Assembly (NCBI GenBank): GCA_913057775.1
Contig: CAJXOG010000002.1
Coordinates: 248,001 to 312,000 of the forward strand
Origin: an uncultured Fodinibius sp.
GTDB taxonomy: Bacteria; Bacteroidota; Rhodothermia; Balneolales; Balneolaceae
DNA length: 64,000 nt
Direction: 5' to 3'
The notes under the pieces are model-generated. The model had not been told where the DNA came from. It worked only from the letters and a program-made list of their open reading frames with translations, and did no database searches. Below, one piece after another: positions 49,321-51,181 of this stretch (positions are counted from its first letter, which is position 1; each line of letters begins with the position of its first letter). The translations under genes and the position numbers were made by a program.

Positions 49321-50019
49321 TTATCGTATTTCTATTTTAGAACAGAGTTGTTTTACAATGGGGATATTGCTGATAAAAGCTTTTTTATTGGCATTCACAA
49401 ATTTGGCAAGGTCAAAACTTTTATCGAGTATAGGATTATACATTAGCTCTTCGAGCACGGCCGTGGCTTTGTCGGTGAGTTCCATGCTGAGCTCCTTATT
49501 TTCGCTGGTATCATTTATCCAGAACCGGAGTAGCTCCAGGTATTGTCTTCGTAGAAAAGCGTATGAATAGGAATTTAAAACCAGGGTAGATGAGACCGAT
49601 ATGTGGTCATCATTTTGGATAAACTGCTTGATAATTCGTTCCAATTCTTTTTCAAAATCTGTTTTGATAAAGCTGTTCAGGATAAAATCAGAGAGCGTGG
49701 CTTCTACAAAAGCTTCTTTTTCTTGAAGCATATCAAAATTGGTGAACGCAAAGTTCGAAAGTTTTTCGCTCAGGGTATATGATTCAAAATTATCGATTTC
49801 ATTAATCATCATCTCATAGCGGATGACCAGGGAAGAGTAATAAAATTTGAGGATTGATTTTTTATTGGGGAAGTGGTTGAACACCTCGGCTGGGGTAATA
49901 TCAACTTCCTTGGCAATGTCTTTGATATAGAATTGCCCGTCACCCTGCATATGCAGATCAGTGGCAACGTCCGAGATCGCGAATTTCAACTCAAATATTT
50001 CAGGATCAAAAGTGCTCAT
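49321..50019 (-). CDS. TetR-family transcriptional regulator
   Basis: An N-terminal TetR helix-turn-helix (IKDIAKEVDITPAEVFNHFP) followed by a helical ligand or dimer domain, 232 residues in total. It is co-transcribed with the AarF/UbiB-like kinase, ending 3 bp before its start, so the regulator probably controls that operon, perhaps in response to a lipid. The C-terminal domain is not of a known effector class that I can name. Confidence 0.88.
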   Translation of the reverse strand: MSTFDPEIFELKFAISDVATDLHMQGDGQFYIKDIAKEVDITPAEVFNHFPNKKSILKFYYSSLVIRYEMMINEIDNFESYTLSEKLSNFAFTNFDMLQEKEAFVEATLSDFILNSFIKTDFEKELERIIKQFIQNDDHISVSSTLVLNSYSYAFLRRQYLELLRFWINDTSENKELSMELTDKATAVLEELMYNPILDKSFDLAKFVNANKKAFISNIPIVKQLCSKIEIR

Positions 50020-50063
50020 AATTAAATGTATTTATGGATGGCATATTTTACCACAATCAGATT

Positions 50064-50459
50064 TCAAAATCGGTATCGCTTGTAATTTTTTTTCTTGTCA
50101 GTTTGATTATCACCGCTCGTTAAATAAACACAGCCATTTTCTTTGATCAATTTGCCCACGGTCATCTCGCCTTCAAGTATTGCCACAATAAGATGATTGA
50201 AAACTGTTTTGATTGACCGGTCTATAACGAGAATATCATCCAAGAAAATTCCAATGTTATTAAGTCAGTCTCCTTTTACCCGCATAAAAAACGAAACGGC
50301 TGGTCGTTTTATGATATACTCATCGAGAGTAAGTGGTTTTTCAACGTGATGACGCTCCTGGGACGGAAATCCAGTCTCTTTCCAAAACCTGTTAGGATCT
50401 TTTTTGGGATTAGGATCCATGTTTCCCGAATAAATATCAGTAATGCGAAGATCTTTCAT
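50064..50459 (-). pseudogene. umuD-like S24 peptidase pseudogene
   Basis: Read through one in-frame stop, the frame encodes a UmuD/LexA-type protein of about 130 residues. The head (IYSGNMDPNPKKDPNRFWKE, then TGFPSQERHHVEKPLTLDEY, SFFMRVKGD) matches UmuD. The next codon, where GDSM carries the catalytic serine, is TGA (50265-50267), followed by CTT in place of the Met. The frame continues as NNIGIFLDDILVIDRS and LIVAILEGEMTVGKL, where the catalytic lysine position (the first Lys of TVKKL in E. coli) is Gly. Both catalytic residues are lost, and no umuC is adjacent. Confidence 0.8.
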
Positions 50460-50596: not shown

Positions 50597-51181
50597 TTAT
50601 CCGATTACTTGATGTTCTTTTAAAACGTGCAGTGTTTGTTCGGCCTGCCACTGATGCCGACGTTGATGAGCCTCAAGCAGAAGAAAACACTCAGAGAGTG
50701 TCATTTTAATTATTGGAAAGATGGGATGAGAAACTTTTGATCGCCCCAAGTGAACGTTTTTCTGGTGTGCATTTTCGAGTTCGGCAATCAGACGATTCTG
50801 TAAATTCAGGTACTCATCGAGCAATTCCATGCGGCTATATCCTGATGTATCAACAGGTTTCATCGATTTTATTGTTTTTAACTTTATTTTGTACGGTGGT
50901 TCAAATAATGAAATAATTTTTTGGGCAAGCCATCGGGGTGGGAAGGATCTGTTTGATGAATTAGCAGTATTCCCATTTACTGATATAGCCGAAGAAATAT
51001 TGTCAAAATACAGATCTCCGTAATTTATGAGGTGACTGTAACATTCTGCGATGCTCCATCGGTCTTCTGTGGGAGCTTTGAGGAACAAGTTCTTGTCTAC
51101 AGACAATATGAATTCTTCGGCGGTGTTCTTGGTCTTCTCAAACTGTTGGATGAACCATTGATAACTGTATTGATCTATCAT
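50597..51181 (-). CDS. DinB-superfamily protein
   Basis: A 194-residue four-helix-bundle protein of the DinB/YfiT type. The metal-site histidines are visible in SIAECYSHLINYGD and LLLEAHQRRHQWQAEQT. The family includes thiol S-transferases with a divalent metal; the substrate here is unknown. The gene starts 3 bp after the GH3 gene stop, so the two share an operon. Confidence 0.85.
   Translation of the reverse strand: MIDQYSYQWFIQQFEKTKNTAEEFILSVDKNLFLKAPTEDRWSIAECYSHLINYGDLYFDNISSAISVNGNTANSSNRSFPPRWLAQKIISLFEPPYKIKLKTIKSMKPVDTSGYSRMELLDEYLNLQNRLIAELENAHQKNVHLGRSKVSHPIFPIIKMTLSECFLLLEAHQRRHQWQAEQTLHVLKEHQVIG

Follow-up and report, generated by a model that had tools for sequence, protein, structure and literature searches.

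The locus described here raises the question of why a umuD-like gene should carry a stop codon in the very column of its catalytic serine, and of what became of the protease that this serine would have served. In textbook accounts, mutagenic Pol V is kept in check by a safety catch, namely the requirement for UmuD to be cleaved. The window, namely the whole stretch of 64,000 nucleotides that was analyzed, corresponds to positions 248001-312000 of contig C2 of the source genome (G000), a draft assembly of 21 contigs.

The umuD locus of the window

The elements of the locus are as follows.

50022..50459, minus strand: umuD pseudogene, delineated by alignment with six congeners (46.9 bits; 72% identity to the G006 orthologue)
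50459-50457, minus strand: its ATG start codon
50265..50267, minus strand: internal TGA (codon 65) in the catalytic-serine column, where the intact congeners have a glycine codon
50086..50093, minus strand: run of T with one base more than in the orthologues (congener alignment), which shifts the frame into a TGA at 50064-50066
50056..50060, minus strand: conserved IWG motif, one base short near 50058 relative to the orthologues (congener alignment)
50022-50024, minus strand: old stop codon (alignment with congeners)
49321..50019, minus strand: gene for a TetR-type regulator, directly after umuD (Pfam TetR_C_23, 40.4 bits; found in 12/12 congeners)
50597..51181, minus strand: DinB_2-family gene on the other side of umuD (Pfam DinB_2, 50.3 bits)

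Translation of the minus strand yields a UmuD-like frame of 131 codons (50459-50067) that is followed immediately by a stop and interrupted by a single internal TGA. The plus-strand frame at the same place is unrelated to UmuD. In the translation the methionine of the GDSM motif is replaced by leucine, and the column of the catalytic lysine is occupied by glycine. To this extent the earlier note was correct: it had described a umuD pseudogene with a frame of about 130 codons, a TGA at the serine of the GDSM motif, loss of the following methionine, and glycine in place of the lysine. The half of the gene past the internal TGA is matched by Pfam Peptidase_S24 (E 6.4e-6, 26.3 bits against a cut-off of 23.3), and the half ahead of it, searched alone against Pfam, gave no match. 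With the frames read through, a search of the source genome scored the whole place at 46.9 bits with one TGA inside. The resemblance to umuD exceeds chance, as indicated by the 72% protein identity to the orthologue of G006 and by the neighbors shared with the congeners.

A read-through query in which X stands for the stop codon found matches in 23 of the 58 genomes searched (source genome included). Within the genus (g1), open orthologues are found in G006, G001, G008, and G005 with 72, 66, 66, and 60% identity to the window umuD, respectively, and further broken copies in G011 and G004. At all seven umuD loci of the genus, umuD is succeeded immediately by the TetR gene in the same orientation, and the DinB_2 gene is the other neighbor at each of them except that of G004. 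Note that the latter belongs to the DinB superfamily and is not polymerase IV. The TetR-type gene starts two bases past the old umuD stop and is retained in 12/12 congeners, even where umuD is broken or absent.

A search of the source genome for S24 proteins gave three places: the window umuD, a gene for a LexA-like protein, and one with a weak S24 match. Neither of the latter two encodes a UmuD. The LexA-like S24 protein, encoded on contig C11 (L067, 6563-7210), has both the serine and the lysine, and its gene adjoins that of a Y-family polymerase (L067, 7963-9297, also C11). A second Y-family polymerase gene of the source genome is located at G000:C11:64490, and similar pairs occur in several congeners.

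Lesions and decay of the window copy

At the place of the internal stop the four intact congeners have GGT, GGA, GGG, and GGA, all of which encode glycine. The broken copy of G004 aligns GGT there, and that of G011 has indels around the corresponding codon. The TGA thus took the place of a glycine codon, not a serine codon. The proposal that a one-base change had turned TCA into TGA finds no support in these codons, and origin from a serine codon is rejected. The earlier note had also pointed to close relatives with a normal GDSM codon as evidence against it. There are none in the genus, and the serine-bearing ancestor that it assumed is likewise absent: the four open congener UmuDs read GDG-L or GNG-L where Escherichia coli UmuD reads GDSM, with arginine in the column of the catalytic lysine. 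With glycine and arginine at these positions in the relatives, a normal UmuD whose serine codon was struck by a stop, perhaps under selection against the protease, is the least probable of the readings considered here, even though the stop does sit in the serine column.

Nor is the frame otherwise intact, as had been supposed. The UmuDs of the intact congeners are 145 residues long, and the window frame ends early, at 50064-50066, as a result of the shift introduced by the extra base in the T-run; the missing base near 50058 is a second C-terminal indel. Recoding of the TGA is ruled out by these two further lesions. Twenty-four invariant columns were defined on an alignment of 15 rows, and six of them are changed in the window umuD (five substitutions and the codon struck by the deletion). 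Base changes were assigned to the window and G006 branches by comparison with three outgroups (G001, G008, and G005): the first two codon positions account for 28 of 42 changes on the former branch and for 9 of 23 on the latter. A single sequencing error is insufficient to explain the +1 and -1 indels together with the six altered invariant residues, and the window umuD is, by this pattern of change, a gene under relaxed constraint rather than one with an isolated error. That umuD is intact and that the stop and both indels arose in assembly or sequencing is highly improbable: the genome is a draft and one lesion lies inside a homopolymer, yet three separate disabling lesions, the altered invariant residues, and the higher share of changes at the first two codon positions than on the G006 branch would all have to be accounted for, and umuC is broken as well. 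By these comparisons the feature is an ordinary pseudogene, and the first explanation of its stop was wrong.

The shared fate of umuD and umuC

The absence of umuC, as given in the earlier note, holds within the window but not for the genome, which retains a remnant at G000:C2:496205-496591, ∼184 kb past the window. It consists of ∼63 N-terminal codons fused to the C-terminal end, with a large internal deletion between them. An intact umuDC was not found elsewhere in the source genome, the S24 search having given no other UmuD and the UmuC search this remnant. With the UmuC of G006 as the query, intact copies were found in G001, G005, and G008 (74-83% identity), all distant from umuD; the umuC of G004 contains several stops, and that of G011 is a fragment at C7:1293-1439. 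In the other five congeners the matches to the same query were confined to Y-family polymerases of greater distance, with at most 35% identity, and the TetR neighborhood is without a recognized umuD. Candidate short umuD remnants upstream of the TetR gene in G002 (E 0.085) and G007 (E 0.55) are suggestive. Accordingly, umuD and the unlinked umuC are in the same state in 12 of 12 congeners: both intact in four, both broken in three, and both absent in five.

The umuC remnants of the source genome and of G011 align across the deletion junction, with ∼0.88 kb lost relative to G006. The umuD lesions of the two genomes differ although the umuC junction is common to both. In a small two-protein tree G000 pairs with G011, weakly (0.39). 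The simplest order of events would be loss of umuC first and of umuD second, and, since both genes have decayed, UmuD seems to have been without a task in the window line once UmuC was gone. In six genomes of the genus, umuC lies within ∼2 kb of a contig end (L244, L243, L245, L246, L069, and L242 of G001, G005, G008, G004, G000, and G006, respectively), which hints at an adjoining repeat.

Loss of the protease site in Balneolaceae UmuDs

A search of 92 Balneolaceae (family f1) genomes located UmuD in 43 and an open gene in 40, the other three being G000, G004, and G011. The catalytic lysine is found in none of the 40 open proteins, 27 of which have arginine and 13 cysteine in its place. The catalytic serine is kept in three (L209, L210, and L217), and the remaining 37 have alanine (22), glycine (5), aspartate (5), glutamate (4), or asparagine (1). 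Given the absence of the lysine in 40/40 and the glycine and arginine of the intact congeners, the Ser-Lys pair was gone before the window gene broke. Of the two possibilities raised earlier, recent decay or selection against the protease, the decay of umuD stands and the selection does not, the pair having been lost before the breakage.

The scissile bond of UmuD is Ala-Gly or Cys-Gly, according to PMC8565304. Neither is present in the Balneolaceae: the P1 residue before the scissile glycine is threonine in 38 of 40, and the other two have DYPAP. These two proteins (L214 and L215, from G093 and G084) carry DYPAP in place of GFPSPA, and the stretch examined around their genes contains no umuC.

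An AlphaFold2 model of UmuD from Balneola sp. EhC07 has a mean pLDDT of 82.7, with values of 95-98 for residues 51-140 and 48-59 for the first 40. The top Foldseek match of this model is E. coli UmuD' (1ay9; E 3.2e-10, target TM 0.92, rmsd 1.6), and a sequence match to 1umu has E 6.9e-19. As judged from the model, the UmuD fold is retained and the active site is lost. The cut-off of the NCBIfam UmuD profile NF007621 is exceeded by four of five tested relatives, the fifth (L218) scoring 102.3 against the cut-off of 110. The four over the cut-off (L064, L061, L241, and L209), which lack the dyad or its lysine, receive from this profile the name "autoproteolytic subunit".

Finite pairwise dN/dS values for Balneolaceae UmuDs range from 0.02 to 0.29, many pairs being saturated in dS, and by this measure the proteins are under purifying selection. 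A umuC gene lies in the same stretch as umuD at 34 of 36 Balneolaceae loci outside genus g1, and it is present and unlinked in 4/4 genomes of g1 with an intact umuD. All 38 Balneolaceae UmuCs examined display the motifs (I/V)DCNNFY and YSIDE, which we take to be catalytic, together with a C-terminal LSxxxTT tail. Pol V in this family would seem to operate with no proteolytic switch from UmuD to UmuD'.

Putative LexA control

In the part of PMC7739468 that was available, the LexA regulon of the Balneolaeota includes polymerases IV and V. The motif published there was scored near gene starts with a threshold of at least 15 of 20 positions, and the background was estimated from 40 composition shuffles of each region. 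Outside g1, a putative box of at least 15/20 lies upstream of umuD in 33 of 36 Balneolaceae, the other three scoring 12-14, and the box exceeds the 95% level of its own shuffled region (14-16) in 29 of 36. In the four intact congeners of g1 a box was not found, the best scores being 12-13/20. The best score at the window umuD is 14/20, which equals the 95% level of the shuffles, and a search of the entire window for the motif with three or fewer mismatches gave no match.

UmuDs outside the Balneolaceae

For a control with named genomes, the best 80 of 572 confirmed loci were used, of which five are from Balneolaceae; all of the other 75 keep both serine and lysine. In family f4, which belongs to the same order, both residues are kept in 8/8, together with an Ala-Gly site, some of these records being also among the 75. 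For the class, 38 of 39 places outside f1 and f4 were taken, the sixth, partial place of G177 being left out. Both residues are kept in 33 of them (one of these, L320 of G177, is broken), and five are without the lysine: G150 and G158 (serine, arginine), the second copy of G159 and G160 (alanine, arginine), and G237 (glutamate, arginine). The phylum, which we take to be Bacteroidota in GTDB, was sampled at 40 places picked among the listed matches of 190 matching genomes. Weaker matches fall outside this sample, and divergent UmuDs are thus under-sampled in its counts of 36/40 with serine and lysine and four without lysine. The latter are all from family f26 (L355, L357, L358, and L359) and have arginine for the lysine, alanine (three) or serine (one) in the serine column, and a Thr-Gly site that reads ATGFGAAAD. 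With lysine-less proteins both in the class and in f26, loss of the dyad solely in the Balneolaceae is ruled out.

In G158, G159, and G160 the position at which UmuD' begins is immediately preceded by a methionine (MAFPSPA, MRFQTQA, and MRFSNQS, respectively), although translation may also begin farther upstream. The lysine-less UmuDs of family f13 (L331, L332, and L333) may start at the UmuD' position and be natural arm-less UmuD' genes, and a UmuC-like frame lies near each of them.

A first tree, built without the two broken congeners and without seven duplicate rows (two of them from f4), places 40 Balneolaceae rows on one side of a branch (99/98) and 81 dyad-keeping rows on the other. A second tree gained 18 rows from the class and kept half of the remaining ones; f26 is in neither tree. 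Here four rows from f13 and f20 join the Balneolaceae side (44 rows, 95/98), and G150 is placed beside a dyad-keeping relative, with long branches flagged. Loss of the dyad would thus be either recurrent or older than the Balneolaceae.

A proposed history of the locus and its alternatives

With a probability that we put at roughly 60%, the window gene is a pseudogene from a UmuD lineage without protease activity, whose intact relatives would be uncleavable, UmuD'-like subunits of Pol V, and in which umuC was lost first. In the proposed sequence of events, the Ser-Lys protease would have been lost in the lineage ahead of the breakage of the window gene. The intact relatives would act in a UmuD'-like state with no self-cleavage, and Pol V would be controlled by LexA at transcription and by RecA rather than through RecA-driven cleavage of UmuD. 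In the window line an internal deletion would then have cut umuC, and umuD, of no use thereafter, would have gathered its stop and frameshifts. In other families, similar sets have alanine or glutamate for the serine, arginine for the lysine, and sometimes a Thr-Gly site, and one is possibly arm-less. A broader claim, for which we consider the odds slightly better than even, is that the Balneolaceae and smaller groups of the phylum run a LexA-controlled Pol V with a naturally occurring pseudoprotease UmuD, such that the mutasome would have lost the proteolytic timer driven by RecA and Pol V would be ready for use once made.

Several points count against the proposed history: the N-terminal arm, which is removed in E. 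coli, is still open in the family and conserved in genus g1, the intact members of g1 lack a LexA box, the pairing of G000 with G011 is weak, and many dS values are saturated. In addition, the S60A substitution in E. coli blocks UmuD cleavage and lowers mutagenesis, as described in the available portion of PMC3901139. The arm and the effect of S60A bear on a reading that is possible, albeit doubtful, in which UmuDs without the dyad are locked in the uncut form and serve as a permanent brake on UmuC, or as its partner in a DNA-damage checkpoint, rather than as an activator. The upstream arm is open in Balneolaceae UmuD frames, and in g1 it is as conserved as the body of the protein (74% and 73%, respectively). 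In E. coli, UmuC is held in check by uncut UmuD, and UV mutagenesis is lower with S60A (PMC3901139 and PMC5342242). Of all observations, the conserved arm of g1 speaks most strongly for a different role, for example as a brake, and it fits another contact equally well. Arm conservation amounts, however, to only 16% and 32% in genera g19 and g20, and the three lysine-less f13 relatives may have no arm at all. It would also be odd for a Pol V to be maintained by selection, with catalytic-type motifs in 38/38 UmuCs, and yet never be released.

It is unlikely that these UmuDs are still cut in trans, whether by LexA or another S24 protein or by a different protease. An active partner can cut the arm of E. 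coli UmuD S60A in trans (PMC5342242, as far as its text was available), and LexA-like proteins exist in the Balneolaceae. The scissile alanine or cysteine is, however, threonine in 38/40, and the family search of the Balneolaceae revealed no second UmuD that keeps the dyad; its other matches are weak, with frames of ∼200-390 residues, and those read in g1 are LexA-like or other S24 proteins. The two readings weighed with the lesions, sequencing or assembly error and a stop in a true serine codon, fall far behind these.

If the proposed history is true, the Balneolaceae would provide a natural test of what UmuD cleavage is for and of whether Pol V needs it, for they would have given up the cleavage catch but retained Pol V together with, in the majority of genera, its SOS-type promoter. 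The four of five tested proteins that exceed the profile cut-off also demonstrate that the automatic name "autoproteolytic subunit" can mislead at the active site.

Comparison with known systems

A natural UmuD without the dyad was not reported in the available text of the literature searched, which included PMC6511836 and PMC12926913 and lay mostly outside subscription journals, nor is one mentioned in the accessible portions of two surveys of Y-family polymerases. With E. coli UmuD and UmuD' the Balneolaceae proteins share the S24 fold, as indicated by the matches to 1ay9 and 1umu, and, in 34/36 loci outside g1, a umuC partner in the same stretch. They differ in lacking the lysine (40/40) and the serine (37/40) and in the replacement of cysteine or alanine by threonine at P1 (38/40).

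The laboratory variants provide a second comparison. UmuD3A, which carries three changes in the arm, is considered a UmuD' mimic in the parts of PMC3901139 and PMC5342242 that were available, and an uncleavable UmuD can thus in principle be active. Like S60A and UmuD3A, the Balneolaceae UmuDs have an open frame for a full arm and are not expected to cleave themselves, and 22/40 have alanine in the serine column, as S60A does. Unlike these variants they are natural, family-wide, and apparently under purifying selection, and either S60A-like or UmuD3A-like behavior may be envisaged for them.

HumD of phage P1 is a pre-activated, short UmuD' that is active without a self-cleavage step, according to the available text of PMC7092418. 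All five tested Balneolaceae UmuDs score 70-78 bits against the HumD profile, the cut-off of which is 120. Activity without self-cleavage would be common to both, as predicted for the Balneolaceae UmuDs from their sequences, whereas HumD is arm-less and the Balneolaceae UmuDs retain an open frame for the arm.
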